The notes under the pieces: model-generated
The model's input: the letters and a program-made list of their open reading frames with translations, nothing else
Told to the model about the DNA's origin: nothing
The model's database searches: none
Position numbers and translations under genes: made by a program
Assembly (NCBI GenBank): GCA_030538315.1
Contig: JAUNUF010000011.1
Span: forward strand, 1 to 47,002
Direction of reading: 5' to 3'
Origin: Propionibacteriaceae bacterium
Lineage (GTDB): Bacteria > Actinomycetota > Actinomycetes > Propionibacteriales > Propionibacteriaceae
DNA: 47,002 nucleotides
Part shown: piece by piece, positions 41,565 through 47,002 of the stretch
How positions within the stretch are numbered: position 1 is the stretch's first letter
Layout of the letters: each line of letters opens with the position of its first letter

Positions 41565-43136
41565 TCACATCAGTGCTGCGAGGATCTGGACAGCCACGAT
41601 CTTGGCGACGATGGCCAGCGCGAACAGCGCTGCATAGCCCGCCTCGACGCGGTCGTCGTCAACCCGTTCGTTGGCGAACGCAAGGATGGCCGGCTGGCCA
41701 ATGAACCCGGCGAACGCCCCGGCGCTCCGAGGCGCCGAGAGCCCCATGGTGCGTGCCCCGATCATGAACAGCAGCGCGGCCACCACCACCAAGCTGGCCG
41801 CCATGAGGCCTGCCCTCACCCCTGCCCCCGTGAGCGCCTGCTGGGCGAACATAGGCCCCGATGCCAGGCCCACCGTCGCGAGGAAGAGCAGCAGGCCCAA
41901 TTGCCGGATGGTCAGGTTCACCGAGAGCGGGATGGCCCACAGCAGCGGGCCGGTGCGGTGCACGGCACCGAGGATCATGCCCACCACTAGCGGCCCGGCC
42001 GCCGGGCCGAGGGACAGTTCGATGCCGCCGGGCAGCGGCACCACGACGGCGCCCAGCAGGAGCCCCAGCACCAGGCCCAGGCCCAGCGCCAGGGCGTCAA
42101 CCTCGGAGACCTTCCGCTCGGAATCTCCGAAGAAGGCGCCGATGGAATCCAGATCGCGCTGCGGGCCAACTGCCAGGACCCGGTCACCGGGCTGCAGCAC
42201 GAGATCGTCCTTGGCCAGGAGATCAGCATCCCCACGCCTCACGCGGGTGATGACTCCGCCGAAGCGGCCGGGCAGGTTGAGTTGCGCCACGCTGCGGCCG
42301 GCCACCGTAGAGGACGAGACCACGAAACGGCGGAAGTCCACCGAGCCACGGTCTGTGGTGAGTTCCTGTTCCAAGCGGGTGCCCAGATACTCGATGGCCC
42401 TGGCGGTGGCCTGTGGCGATCCCACCACCAGCACCTGGTCCCCCGGGACAAGATCCTCCCCTGGCGACAGGACGCGGGTGCGGCCATCGCGCACCAGGTA
42501 GCTCATCTTGATGGATTCATCGGTCCATCCGGGCACCGCCCGCAGCGCGGTGGTGCGATCCACCTCCACCGATTCCGCGACGATGCCCGCGGCGTTGGCG
42601 GAGGGCTCATCGCGGGCGCCGGGCCAGGCGCGTTGCACCACGAGGGCGACAGCAATGATGGCCAGCACCACGCCTACCGGGTATCCCAGCGAATAGCCGA
42701 CGGCCGCATCCGGGCTCCCGGTGGCCTGCGTTGCGGCGGCGAGGGCGGGTGTGGAGGTGAGGGATCCCGCGAAGACGCCAGCGATCAGCCCCGGGGTGAG
42801 CCCGAATGCTCTGCCGATCAGCAGCGAGGCAACCGCCACCGCGGTCAGCACCGCCAGGGCCAGTCCCATGAGGGGAAGTTGGCGGCGCAGATCGGCAAAG
42901 AAGGTCTCCCCGGCCGCGACGCCCACGGCGTAGACGAACAGGGCCAGGCCGAGCGTCGACACCAGACCCATCCCCTCCCCCAGCGACGGCTCCACAGCGC
43001 CGAAGAAGAGGCCCACGAACAGTGCCCCGGCCGCTCCCAGGCGCAGCGGGCCGAAGGGGATCATGCCGACCGCGGCCCCCAACGCCACGACCACCATGAT
43101 GGTCAGCAGCGGTGAGGCGGTCAGGAGGTCAAGCAC
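41565..43136 (-). CDS. AAE-family transporter with TrkA-C (RCK-C) domains
   Basis: 523-residue membrane protein of the aspartate:alanine exchanger-like (YidE/YbjL) family. Two bundles of about five membrane helices (roughly residues 1-170 and 350-523) flank a cytoplasmic segment with two TrkA-C-like units (DLVPGDQVLVVGSP and DLVLQPGDRVLAVGPQ). Repeats such as TPGLIAGVFAGSLTSTPALA and APRSAGAFAGFIGQPAILA are the family's paired pore motifs. Substrate unknown. GTG 43136 lies 7 nt after TAGCCT, so it may be leaderless. It diverges from the ABC importer across a repeat-bearing gap. Confidence 0.9.
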   Translation of the reverse strand: MLDLLTASPLLTIMVVVALGAAVGMIPFGPLRLGAAGALFVGLFFGAVEPSLGEGMGLVSTLGLALFVYAVGVAAGETFFADLRRQLPLMGLALAVLTAVAVASLLIGRAFGLTPGLIAGVFAGSLTSTPALAAATQATGSPDAAVGYSLGYPVGVVLAIIAVALVVQRAWPGARDEPSANAAGIVAESVEVDRTTALRAVPGWTDESIKMSYLVRDGRTRVLSPGEDLVPGDQVLVVGSPQATARAIEYLGTRLEQELTTDRGSVDFRRFVVSSSTVAGRSVAQLNLPGRFGGVITRVRRGDADLLAKDDLVLQPGDRVLAVGPQRDLDSIGAFFGDSERKVSEVDALALGLGLVLGLLLGAVVVPLPGGIELSLGPAAGPLVVGMILGAVHRTGPLLWAIPLSVNLTIRQLGLLLFLATVGLASGPMFAQQALTGAGVRAGLMAASLVVVAALLFMIGARTMGLSAPRSAGAFAGFIGQPAILAFANERVDDDRVEAGYAALFALAIVAKIVAVQILAALM

Positions 43137-43143
43137 GCCTCAC

Positions 43144-43149
43144 AGGCTA
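43144..43149 (-). promoter_or_regulatory. Candidate -10 (TAGCCT) of the AAE transporter
   Basis: TAGCCT ends 7 nt before GTG 43136, a leaderless layout. Confidence 0.4.
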
Positions 43150-43221
43150 TCGCCTCAGCCCCGAATCAGAGCCGCGATGACCGTGCGATAGATCACGGAG
43201 AGATAACACTCGGCTCGCTTT

Positions 43222-43283
43222 GTTCCCTGTCTGGACATTTTGCGTTCATCTTCTGTTTATCGTGTGTTCATCCCCGGTTCATG
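43222..43283 (+). promoter_or_regulatory. PHO-box-like direct repeats upstream of the ABC importer
   Basis: GTTCATC (43244), GTTTATC (43255), GTTCATC (43266) and GTTCATG (43277) recur at exactly 11-nt steps. Two weaker units in the same phase, GGACATT (43233) and GTTCCCT (43222), extend it. The unit and spacing match the PhoP box of Streptomyces (11-nt direct repeats with a GTTCACC-like core). The only TANNNT hexamer in the gap, TATCGT at 43259-43264, lies inside the array. The last unit is part of the palindrome GGTTCATGAACC (43276-43287). Confidence 0.7.
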
Positions 43284-43313
43284 AACCACCAGACCCACCG
43301 CAGGAGATCAACG

Positions 43314-44423
43314 ATGACCCTCAGGATCCGAACCATCGCAGCCGCGGCCGCCGTTTCAGCACTGCTGCTGTCCAGCTGCGCCATCGAGGATGAGACCACA
43401 CCGGCCCCACCGGCCGACGGCGCAACCACCGGCGCAGCCGGCACCGAGCCAGCCGCTCCCTCCGCCGCTGAGCCTGAGGACAGCCTCGTCGTGGCCTGCG
43501 GCAACCAGGAGGACGTGTGCCAGGCATGGGTGGCAGCCTTCGAAGAGAAGACCGGCGTTGCCACCAGCTACGTCCGGCTCGCCTCGGGTGAAGCGGTCGC
43601 GCGTCTCGAATCCGCCAAGAGCAACCCGGAGTTTGATGTCTGGCACGGCGGACCGGTTGACGGCTACAACGTGGCCGCGGCCGCTGGACTGCTCGACACC
43701 TACAACTCACCCGCTGCCAGCGAGATCGATCCCAAGTACATGGATCCTGACGGCTACTGGGGTGGCATCTACGTCGGCGTTCTAGGGTTCTGCTCCAACC
43801 AGGCCGTCCAGCACGGCCTGGGCGTGGAAGCCCCGAAGACCTGGGACGACCTCCTGGATCCCAAGCTCAAGGGCCAGATCATGATGGCCCACCCGGCAAC
43901 CTCCGGCACCGCCTTCACCACGCTCTGGACCCAGGTGGTACTGCGTGGCGGCGAAGACCAGGCCCTTGACTGGATGCGCCAGCTGCACGGCAACATCCTG
44001 CAGTACACCAAGTCCGGCTCCGCGCCGGCCCAGTCTGCCGGCCGCGGCGAGGTGGCCACCTCCATCGTGTTCAGCCACGACTGCGTCAAGTACGAAGAAC
44101 AGGGCATGACCGATCTCGTCACCACCATCCCCAGTGACGGCACCGGCTGGGAAATCGGCGGCGTGGCGCTCATCAAGGGTGCGCAGCACCCCAACGCCGC
44201 CAAGCTCTACTACGACTGGGCGCTCTCGGCTGAAGCCCAGGAGATCGGCCCCAAGCACCAGTCCTACCAGTTGTTCACCAACCCGAACGGCGCACCGGAC
44301 GAACGCATGGTCAACCTCGATGAGGTCACCTTGGTCGATTACGACTTCAAGGCGGCTGCCGAAGCCAAGGAAAGCCTGACGGCTCGCTTCGACGAAGAGA
44401 TCGCCGCAGCTCCGAAGGAGTAA
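43314..44423 (+). CDS. ABC importer substrate-binding lipoprotein (FbpA/AfuA/PhnS type)
   Basis: 369-residue lipoprotein. The signal peptide ends in a lipobox LLLSSC (Cys about residue 22), then a Thr/Ala/Pro linker and an Fe(III)/polyamine-type periplasmic-binding fold: SLVVACGNQ, WHGGPVDGYN, WDDLLDPKLKGQIMMAHPA, SGTAFTTLW. This fold binds Fe3+, thiamine, phosphonates or sugar phosphates; the PHO-like repeats upstream favour a phosphorus compound such as a phosphonate or organophosphate. ATG 43314 has AGGAG 7 nt upstream; an earlier in-frame ATG lies in the repeats. It is followed by a hairpin and the permease gene. Confidence 0.88.
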   Translation: MTLRIRTIAAAAAVSALLLSSCAIEDETTPAPPADGATTGAAGTEPAAPSAAEPEDSLVVACGNQEDVCQAWVAAFEEKTGVATSYVRLASGEAVARLESAKSNPEFDVWHGGPVDGYNVAAAAGLLDTYNSPAASEIDPKYMDPDGYWGGIYVGVLGFCSNQAVQHGLGVEAPKTWDDLLDPKLKGQIMMAHPATSGTAFTTLWTQVVLRGGEDQALDWMRQLHGNILQYTKSGSAPAQSAGRGEVATSIVFSHDCVKYEEQGMTDLVTTIPSDGTGWEIGGVALIKGAQHPNAAKLYYDWALSAEAQEIGPKHQSYQLFTNPNGAPDERMVNLDEVTLVDYDFKAAAEAKESLTARFDEEIAAAPKE

Positions 44424-44466: not shown

Positions 44467-44487
44467 CCCAGACCCAGGAAAGTGCGC

Positions 44488-46242
44488 ATGACCGCCACCG
44501 TTGACGTTCCACCCGCCGTTGATCCGACGGCTCCTGCCCCGAAACGCAAGCCCCGCCGGGTCCGTCAGGACCCAGTGACGATCGGCCTGATCGTCGTCGT
44601 GGTGGCCATCTTGTTCCTCCTCGTGCTCCTCCCCTTGGGGCGCACCTTCATGGCCGCGTTCTCCGAGCGCGGCATGGCCACGCTGACCCGGATGTTCACC
44701 TCCGAGGTCAATCGGCGAATCCTTCTCAACACCGTCATCCTCGGACTCCTGGTTGCGGCCATCGGCACCCTCATCGGGTTCGTCCTCGCCTACGCCCAGG
44801 CTCGCCTCCAGTGGCGCGGAAAGAAGATCGTCCACCTCCTCTCGCTGTTGCCGATCGTTTCTCCCCCCTTCGCCGTCGCCACCGCAGTGATCACCCTGTT
44901 TGGCCGCGGAGGCATCATCAGCAAGCAGCTGCTGGGCCTCAACTGGAACGTCTACGGCCTCGGGGGCCTGACGTTCGTGCTCGCCCTGTCCTTCTTCCCG
45001 GTGGCATACCTCAACCTGCTCGGCATGCTGCGCTCACTCGACCCCTCGTTGGATGAGGCGTCGCAGAGCCTGGGCGCAAACAAGTGGCAGATCTTCATCA
45101 CGGTCACGTTGCCCATGCTGATCCCCGGATTCGCAGCTTCCTTCCTGCTGCTGTTCGTCGAGGCCATCGCTGACCTGGCCAACCCGCTGGTGCTGGGTGG
45201 AGACTTCACCGTGTTAGCATCCCGGGCCTACCTCGCCATCATCGGCGAGTACAACCTGGGGGCAGGCGCCGCCTACTCCCTGGTGCTCCTGGTGCCGGCT
45301 CTCATGGTCTTCATCGTGCAGCGCTACTGGTCCAACCGTCAGTCCGCCGTCAGCGTGACGGGCAAGCCGGCAGGCACGGCCAAGCTCAACTCGTCCAACC
45401 TGGCCCGCATTCCCGTCCTCAGCGTCGTGGGGTTCCTCATGCTCCTCATCGTGCTGGTGTACGGCACCGTGATCGTGGGCGGGTTCGTCCGGATCCTCGG
45501 CGTCAACAACACCTGGACGCTGGACAACTACCGCTACCTGTTCCAGGGCATCGGTTCAGATGCCATCATCACCACCACCCTGCTGGCCCTGATCGCCACC
45601 CCGATCGCGGGTGTCATGGGCATGCTGATTGCCTGGCTCGTGGTGCGCAAGCTCCGCAAGGGTGCCGGCATCCTGGACTTCCTGGGCATGCTCGGGCTCG
45701 CCGTCCCCGGCACGGTGCTTGGCATCGGCTACGCCATCGCCTACAACACTCCCCTCGACGCCTGGGGGCGCCGCTTCCTCCCAGCGCTGGCAGGCGGTGG
45801 CGCCATCTTCGCAGGGGCCATGGCGATCGTGATGGTCTACATCGCCCGCTCCATCCCCGCTGGTCAACGATCCGGCGTCGCGGCGCTCCAGCAGATTGAC
45901 CCCGCCATCGACGAGGCCTCCACCTCGCTGGGCGCCAGCGGACTGACCACGTTCCGCAAGGTGACACTGCCGTTGATCCGGATGGCCCTGTTGTCTGGCC
46001 TCACCTACGCCTTCGCGCGCTCCATGACGACGATCTCCGCCATCATCTTCATCACCACCCCACGCACGCGCATCATGACCTCGCAGATCCTCTCTGAGGT
46101 GGAAGCGGGACGCTTCGGCAACGCGTTCGCCTACTGCACCATCCTCATCCTCATCGTGCTGGGTGTGATCGGCCTGCTGAACTTCGCCATGCGCGGACGC
46201 AGCAACGTCGCAGCCCCCGCCATTCCCCCTTCAGCAGCCTGA
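44488..46242 (+). CDS. ABC importer permease, two fused TM domains (FbpB type)
   Basis: 584-residue permease with about 12 membrane helices in two homologous halves, each with an EAA loop contacting the ATPase: DEASQSLGANKWQIFITVTL and DEASTSLGASGLTTFRKVTL. The fused architecture is typical of Fe(III)/thiamine/aminoethylphosphonate importers. ATG 44488 has AGGAA 7 nt upstream; a GTG 6 nt earlier is less likely. Followed after 16 nt by the ATPase gene. Partner and substrate as for the binding protein. Confidence 0.92.
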   Translation: MTATVDVPPAVDPTAPAPKRKPRRVRQDPVTIGLIVVVVAILFLLVLLPLGRTFMAAFSERGMATLTRMFTSEVNRRILLNTVILGLLVAAIGTLIGFVLAYAQARLQWRGKKIVHLLSLLPIVSPPFAVATAVITLFGRGGIISKQLLGLNWNVYGLGGLTFVLALSFFPVAYLNLLGMLRSLDPSLDEASQSLGANKWQIFITVTLPMLIPGFAASFLLLFVEAIADLANPLVLGGDFTVLASRAYLAIIGEYNLGAGAAYSLVLLVPALMVFIVQRYWSNRQSAVSVTGKPAGTAKLNSSNLARIPVLSVVGFLMLLIVLVYGTVIVGGFVRILGVNNTWTLDNYRYLFQGIGSDAIITTTLLALIATPIAGVMGMLIAWLVVRKLRKGAGILDFLGMLGLAVPGTVLGIGYAIAYNTPLDAWGRRFLPALAGGGAIFAGAMAIVMVYIARSIPAGQRSGVAALQQIDPAIDEASTSLGASGLTTFRKVTLPLIRMALLSGLTYAFARSMTTISAIIFITTPRTRIMTSQILSEVEAGRFGNAFAYCTILILIVLGVIGLLNFAMRGRSNVAAPAIPPSAA

Positions 46243-46258
46243 GATCGGAGACAGACAG

Positions 46259-47002
46259 ATGACAGACCTCGCAGCCGCCGACAAGTTGCTCGAAGACACC
46301 CAGCCCAACACCGGCCGCCTCAGCCTGGTGGGTCTGACCAAGGAGTTCGGCAACGGCCCGGAAAAGGTCACAGCCGTCGACGCCATCGACCTCGACATTG
46401 AACCGGGTGAGTTCATCACCCTCCTCGGCCCTTCTGGGTGTGGGAAGACCACCACCCTGCGCATGATCGCCGGTTTCGAAGATCCCACCGGCGGCGAAGT
46501 GGTGTTGGACGGGCGCAACATGATTGACACCCCACCCAACCGACGCCCCATGGCCATGGTCTTCCAGTCCTACGCCCTCTTCCCCCACCTCAAGGTGCGC
46601 GACAATGTGGCCTACGGCCTGAAGCTGCGCCGCATGGCGGCCGAGAAGGTCAAAGAGGAAGTTGACCTCGCACTGGAGTCGATGAACCTCCAGCAGTTGG
46701 CCAATCGAGCCCCCAACCAACTTTCGGGCGGGCAGCAGCAGCGAGTGGCCCTGGCCCGTGCGATGGTGATGAAACCCAAGGTGTTGCTGTTTGACGAGCC
46801 GCTCAGCAACCTGGATGCCAAGCTGCGCGAACACATGCGTCTGGAGATCCGCCGCCTGCAGAGGCACCTGGGTATCACCAGCGTCTACGTGACGCACGAC
46901 CAGTCCGAGGCGATGAGCATGTCCGACCGGATCGTCGTGATGAACAAGGGCCGCGTGGAGCAGGCCGCGCCGCCTGAGATGATCTACCGGCAGCCAGCCT
47001 CA
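46259..47002 (+). CDS. ABC importer ATPase (cut by window edge)
   Basis: First 248 residues of a CUT/FbpC-type ATPase. Walker [13 protein letters not shown]-loop [11 protein letters not shown], signature [15 protein letters not shown], Walker [13 protein letters not shown] and H-loop [11 protein letters not shown] are all intact. The C-terminal TOBE-type domain expected for this class lies beyond the window. ATG 46259 has GGAG 8 nt upstream. It powers the permease and binding protein encoded just upstream. Confidence 0.95.

Follow-up and report, generated by a model that had tools for sequence, protein, structure and literature searches.

The afuA-afuB-afuC operon at the end of the window (the whole stretch of 47,002 nucleotides that was analysed) is probably controlled by PhoP and would import phosphorylated sugars, or close phosphate esters, as whole molecules. 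The array of short repeats in front of it reads as a multi-unit PHO box. Judged from the sequences, this reading is given a probability of roughly 0.7; binding by PhoP, activation rather than repression, and the class of the ligand are what we infer. The preliminary description had placed a PHO box before an importer, and this placement draws support from a matrix built on the bacterial family, from a PhoR-PhoP-like pair in the genome and from partial conservation of the array. The features are listed below.

43222–43283, + strand: putative PHO-box array of six 7-nt units in 11-nt phase, called from sequence, first matrix rank in the window, genome scan and conservation
43222–43239, + strand: GTTCCCT and GGACATT, the weaker pair of units at the upstream end, at positions kept in the relatives L009 and L111
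43244–43283, + strand: four strong units, GTTCATC, GTTTATC, GTTCATC and GTTCATG, called from sequence and matrix
43258–43263, + strand: TATCGT, a possible but uncertain -10 element
43302–43306, + strand: AGGAG, likely ribosome-binding site, inferred from sequence
43314–44423, + strand: AfuA-like solute-binding lipoprotein, 369 aa, start picked by the ribosome-binding site and the lipobox LSSC
44482–46242, + strand: AfuB-like permease, 586 aa, with two permease halves in a single chain
46259–47002, + strand: ABC-transporter ATPase, PotA/PhnT2/FbpC-like, incomplete at the contig end; its L009 counterpart has 382 aa
41565–43136, − strand: AspT/YidE-type transporter, a divergent neighbour outside the operon

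Layout and statistics of the array

The six units start at 43222 (GTTCCCT), 43233 (GGACATT), 43244 (GTTCATC), 43255 (GTTTATC), 43266 (GTTCATC) and 43277 (GTTCATG), and a 4-nt spacer between successive units gives a strict 11-nt phase. The earlier count of four strong and two weaker units in one phase is confirmed. At least two direct 7-nt repeats with 4-nt spacers are expected of a PHO box, and six units are found here. The array ends at 43283, 30 nt 5′ of the ATG of the lipoprotein gene (43314). A longer listed frame opens at 43281, within the last unit, and is judged less likely to be the gene.

PHO units of the lineage itself were collected from other genomes of the family, where 49 of 57 genomes had a phoU match and 53 a pstS match. 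For each gene the best-scoring 30 loci were taken, one per genome. Among these, a 3-unit array scoring at least 16/21 was present upstream of phoU in 27 of 30 and upstream of pstS in 14 of 30, compared with none of the 60 regions when read backwards. The 114 units obtained give the consensus GTTCACC with a free 4-nt spacer, and the Streptomyces PHO unit consensus is likewise reported as GTTCACC (PMC4415409, PMC4832192). The likeness to Streptomyces PhoP boxes noticed at the outset is upheld by this consensus together with the 7+4 nt layout.

A matrix of the 114 units, for which the window locus was not in the training set, matches the array well. The register at 43244 scores 27.7 with three units and 36.6 with four, and ranks first on both strands of the window. 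With only two units the best register is 43266 (19.4), followed by a minus-strand site elsewhere in the window (18.6) and by 43244 as third (17.2). In DNA simulated by a first-order Markov model, of which one strand of 3 Mb was scored per background, the maximum was 17.1 for three units and 19.4 for four with the window background, and 23.5 and 21.4, respectively, with the intergenic background. When the 177-nt intergenic region was simulated 600 times, no 3-unit score rose above 14.4. A looser 2-unit pattern is too weak to carry an argument, since it gives 24 matches in the genome versus 9 in the control, and 8 in the window versus 2.9 expected, a count equalled in 1 of 100 shuffles. The array as a chance repeat was considered and rejected on the genome scan described below (four places versus none in the control) and on matrix scores above all simulated DNA.

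The Pho system and other arrays of the genome

The genome (2.9 Mb in 204 contigs, 95.9% complete) carries phoU at C78:6557–7174. The genes divergent from it encode a kinase (397 aa, PhoR-like) and a regulator (225 aa, PhoP-like). An array of their own, CTTCACG-GTTCACG-GTTCACC, lies between the kinase and phoU and scores 28.6, compared with 27.7 at the window array; none of 600 simulations was as good. The regulator has RegX3 as its best solved match (E 8e-98), followed by MtrA (2.5e-60). The naming of the pair as PhoP-like and PhoR-like rests on the RegX3 match and the phoU neighbourhood, since the NCBI PhoB (229 of 296.2 bits), PhoR and PnpS models match the regulator and kinase below their cut-offs. 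The YycF and MtrA models slightly outscore the PhoB model on the regulator. PstS is present above its model cut-off and is followed, by eye, by frames resembling pstC, pstA and pstB. A PhoRP-like system, on which phosphate control of the importer would depend, is therefore at hand beside phoU, together with pstS.

The genome was scanned for three copies of GTTYAYC with 4-nt spacers and at most three mismatches. Six matches were found at four places, and none in a backwards control. One is the window locus and another phoRP/phoU; the other two lie at a GT4 glycosyltransferase gene (C126) and at a second ABC importer (C196). The expectation that like arrays would lie near Pho genes is borne out by the phoRP/phoU array, which has the same 11-nt phase. 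The pstS gene is not among the four places because its upstream site, GTTAACC-GTTTACC, is too short for a 3-unit pattern; it scores 12.9 with three units (equalled in 2 of 600 simulations) and 17.4 with two (0 of 600).

The two remaining places are side observations. The array at C196:70864–70892 (18.5; 0 of 600 simulations) lies upstream of an operon for an SBP_bac_6 lipoprotein, permeases and an ATPase, the last identified by eye. This lipoprotein has 5t1p as its sole solved match and no NCBIfam match. The array at C126:1865–1893 (23.2; 0 of 600) lies upstream of the GT4 glycosyltransferase gene, whose product possibly serves in making glycolipids that replace phospholipids at low phosphate. 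A search for a PhoD-type phosphatase (PF09423) gave no match in this 95.9% complete genome, with a model that matches 3 of 14 controls.

Neighbours of the operon

The AspT/YidE-type gene is transcribed divergently, and its promoter would lie in the 177-nt intergenic region that also holds the array. Because the region is shared, the array might also affect this gene. An AspT-type neighbour is also present in L009, and by eye the window and L009 agree in gene order, with a dnaE-like frame followed by the AspT-type gene and then afu. A point against the preferred reading is that no enzyme gene is linked to the operon in L009, where the next gene is convergent and gltD-like (by eye).

Conservation among relatives

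By the lipoprotein gene, the nearest named relatives are a metagenome-assembled genome (MAG) under the name Propionibacterium sp. along with two species of Tessaracoccus; Tessaracoccus caeni is placed in the Propionibacteriaceae. With a threshold of E 1e-60, 7 of 39 genus genomes have a homologue, and near orthologues were defined by 76% identity or more. L112, L113 and L114 duplicate the scores of L009, L010 and L011 and each pair was counted once; the upstream region of L115 is N (masked).

The whole array is kept in L009/L112, at 49 of 62 positions, and the flanks agree at 7 of 38 and 9 of 35; these flank counts are lowered by indels, as the flanks were compared in the ungapped register of the array. 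In L111 the agreement is 36 of 62 positions versus 11 of 38 and 11 of 35. Here units 1, 2 and 4 are kept (6/7 each), unit 3 agrees at 4/7, and units 5 and 6 are not kept. The weak units 1 and 2 are thus retained in both relatives, at 5/7 and 7/7 in L009 and at 6/7 and 6/7 in L111. The L111 array has a matrix score of 11.2, which is weak taken alone (4 of 600 simulations were as good). T. caeni (L010/L113) has an array of its own in a different gene context, and its score of 14.8 (1 of 600) is likewise weak taken alone. The operon of T. antarcticus (L011/L114) shows no array, with a score of 2.8 that was equalled in 118 of 600 simulations, which speaks against the preferred reading. In this species the afuABC homologue lies directly behind malEFG-like genes (L011 2514–10041, by eye). 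Such a neighbourhood without the array points to control of the importer by carbon source.

Among orthologues of 53–64% identity, no array was found except a weak one in L015. This locus (62% identical) has CTTCACG-GGTTACG-TGTCACC about 241 nt upstream of the match, scoring 10.5 (2 of 600 simulations), and is perhaps an independent PHO box. The matrix was applied to 18 homologue regions, which excludes L024–L036, L038, L115 and L117. A simple score was obtained for 34 of 35 homologue loci (L016 is without an upstream region; the window's own L012 was left out, as was L037, the second piece of a split gene seen in L029). Its mean over the 34 regions is 13.8, barely above the 13.2 of the backwards control. 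Besides L015, L026 alone stands out among the more distant homologues, by a minus-strand array of 16/21. A lone simple score of 16–18 proves nothing, since single backwards controls reach 18 (L116) and 16 (L111). A class-wide search found homologues in 5 of 394 genomes, the present one included, and the other four are without an array at best 3-unit scores of 6.0, -0.6, 5.0 and -4.7. As distant and class-level homologues are largely without it, the array belongs to a small set of species and is not general to AfuA homologues.

The binding protein and its likely ligand

The preliminary description had called the transporter FbpABC-type while doubting the iron annotation that the family suggests. 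The doubt proved justified, as AfuA and P5PA, to which the lipoprotein is closest, bind phosphate esters; the importer is more exactly AfuABC-type, by its closest solved relative and its ligand residues. Among solved structures the best matches are AfuA (E 3e-72), 8x1a (5.5e-62) and P5PA (2.8e-54), and then 1y4t, named iron-binding, at 5.7e-13. A profile of four near orthologues reaches only AfuA, 8x1a and P5PA at 1e-20. The alignment with AfuA has 129 of 299 residues identical (43%).

AfuA binds glucose-6-phosphate, and H205, D206 and E229 are reported as essential (PMC4546632). The same study used AfuABC to complement a uhpT deletion in laboratory E. coli, with growth on glucose-6-phosphate as the readout (PMC4546632). 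These three are H255, D256 and E280 in the lipoprotein, so the sugar motif is complete. Over the 19 residues of the AfuA ligand shell, as taken from PMC4546632 and PMC8427247, 14 are identical: H205, D206, E229, Y103, Q269, S37, G38, S148-G149-T150, G185, G59, S184 and F203. Six of the seven phosphate contacts (S37, G38, T60, S148, G149, T150 and G185) are among them, the exception being T60, which is P114 here.

The same pocket might instead serve another phosphate ester under a PHO box, such as pyridoxal phosphate, glycerophosphate or a nucleotide. P5PA, which is 54% identical to AfuA, is reported to bind pyridoxal-5′-phosphate (PMC8427247). Close relatives can therefore change ligand, and S9, T11, G36, T60 and I186 of AfuA differ in the lipoprotein. 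However, P5PA has alanine at the D206 and E229 positions, whereas the lipoprotein has aspartate and glutamate as in AfuA. Import of such an ester is conceivable but doubtful, and phosphorylated sugars are the likelier ligands.

Sign of control

The first account of the array held that the sole TANNNT hexamer lies within it. This holds for the + strand, where TATCGT at 43258–43263 is the only one in the region 43137–43313. No sigma-70-type promoter was found in 43100–43400. The two relatives with alignable arrays read TAGCTG (L009) and TACCTA (L111) at this position by eye, and TATCGT is a weak promoter anchor since it is not kept in them.

Repression has to be considered, as TATCGT is both inside the array and unconserved, and a sigma-70-type promoter was not found. 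PhoP might repress the operon, since the likely promoter is covered by units of the array, which extend to within 30 nt of the start codon: TATCGT, alone of its kind on the + strand, falls among them, and the last one stops at 43283. In Streptomyces lividans, a pstS promoter without its PHO boxes is reported to give constitutive, PhoP-independent expression (PMC2605767). Even in this species PHO boxes are thus not purely activating. Against repression, the hexamer is absent in the relatives with an alignable array, no promoter-like site was found, and a transporter of phosphate esters would presumably be more useful if induced. Repression by PhoP is therefore considered unlikely, and activation is the preferred direction.

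The regulator reading the array

Another response regulator, for example an oxygen-linked one of the PolR type, or several regulators, could also read the array. In Microlunatus phosphovorus, also of the Propionibacteriaceae, PolR is reported to bind GTTCACnnnnnGTTCaC upstream of pit, pstS, ppk and ppgk (PMC6754071). Nevertheless, according to its authors the PolR site strongly resembles the PhoP site of Streptomyces, and PhoB-PhoR could also recognise these promoters (PMC6754071). The genome's own phoRP/phoU region also bears an array. A regulator other than PhoP is improbable on these grounds.

Phosphonate or iron as substrate

An importer under a PHO box could take up 2-aminoethylphosphonate as a phosphorus source, as in the AepXVW/PhnSTU type. 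By name, phnS2 (178.3 bits) and PhnU2 (264.9 bits) come nearest among the NCBI models. In Pseudomonas putida, AepXVW is described as a phosphate-sensitive 2-aminoethylphosphonate importer whose binding protein is of PF13343 (PMC8316502), and PF13343 also matches the lipoprotein here. Both model scores are, however, far below their cut-offs of 392.75 and 593.25. The ATPase reaches 324.5 of 457.7 against the PhnT2 model, which is no fair test as the chain is cut by the contig end. The aepXVW genes are said to adjoin phnWX or phnWAY typically (PMC8316502), and neither set is beside the operon in L009 by eye. PhnW or phosphonatase was not above cut-off in the genome, where the best phnW and phnX scores were 36.3 of 400.8 and 35.4 of 220 bits; absence is not proven by this, since the models passed in no control genome either and the genome is 95.9% complete. 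The AfuA sugar residues H, D and E are kept in the lipoprotein. Phosphonate import is accordingly quite improbable.

A true iron(III) importer behind a chance repeat is hardly credible and was rejected: many of the 41 solved relatives listed, AfuA entries among them, have iron names, but the closest relatives are AfuA and P5PA, the array is far above chance by scan, matrix and simulations, and the Tyr-Tyr pair of Campylobacter FbpA (Y199-Y200, 1y4t), which we take to be its iron-binding site, is replaced by F253-S254.

Proposed mechanism and significance

In the preferred reading of a PhoP-controlled AfuABC importer, PhoR would sense low phosphate, and phosphorylated PhoP dimers would line up head to tail on the 11-nt units. 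PhoP would fill the strong units first and the weak upstream units later. PhoP-P may then recruit polymerase, most likely switching the operon on in phosphate starvation. AfuABC would import sugar phosphates whole, powered by ATP hydrolysis, and these would supply phosphate (and carbon) to the cell.

A 2021 review asks whether sugar phosphates are imported whole or first dephosphorylated in Streptomyces and related actinobacteria (PMC7866108). For Streptomyces the review gives no evidence of sugar-phosphate transport and no uhp genes, while uhpT-type genes occur in some corynebacteria. For some Propionibacteriaceae the locus suggests an answer: a PhoP-controlled AfuABC may import sugar phosphates whole in starvation, instead of or beside hydrolysis outside the cell, with the switch gained or lost among close species and sugar-operon control in T. 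antarcticus. We put this wider picture at even odds. If it is true, whole sugar-phosphate import is a branch of the Pho regulon that the review left as a question (PMC7866108). The locus is a concrete candidate for it outside Streptomyces and open to experiment. Operons with iron(III)- or phosphonate-named relatives can be reinterpreted in the same manner, through operator and ligand residues together.

The PHO box, the AfuABC importer and the control of ester importers by phosphate (ugp) are each known already. What appears to be new is an actinobacterial AfuABC operon with a putative PHO box in front of it. In the titles and abstract openings of the open-licence papers listed, afuABC was not found tied to PhoP or PhoB.

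Comparison with known systems

The PHO boxes of Streptomyces (pstS, glpQ1 and glpQ2) are like the present array in their 7+4 nt units and 11-nt phase. They differ in that the commonest unit here is GTTCATC, with a T at position 6 that occurs in 12% of the family's 114 units, and in the target, which here is an importer of the sugar-phosphate type. The binding protein of ugp presumably belongs to a different family from the AfuA-like lipoprotein. The ugp operons (that of E. coli with PHO boxes, that of C. glutamicum in the response to phosphate limitation) similarly place an ABC importer of whole esters under phosphate starvation (PMC7866108, PMC4415409), yet their substrates are glycerol-3-phosphate and glycerophosphodiesters, unlike the sugar phosphates proposed here. 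The PolR sites of M. phosphovorus, which come from the same family of bacteria, also lie upstream of phosphate genes and consist of GTTCAC direct repeats in an 11-nt phase. PolR is, however, a different regulator tied to oxygen, and no afuABC target is named in the accessible text of the study (PMC6754071).

On the transporter side, P5PA of Actinobacillus (pyridoxal-5′-phosphate; 6wce) is a homologous binding protein with a common phosphate pocket. The closest solved relative is AfuABC of Actinobacillus pleuropneumoniae, a hexose- and heptose-phosphate importer (4r72–4r75). Its conservation survey names Gram-negative groups and Firmicutes and assigns 64 of 268 hits to "other bacteria", with Actinobacteria not among the groups named (PMC4546632). 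Compared with that system, the lipoprotein of this study has a proline at T60, and the operon has a PHO array upstream.
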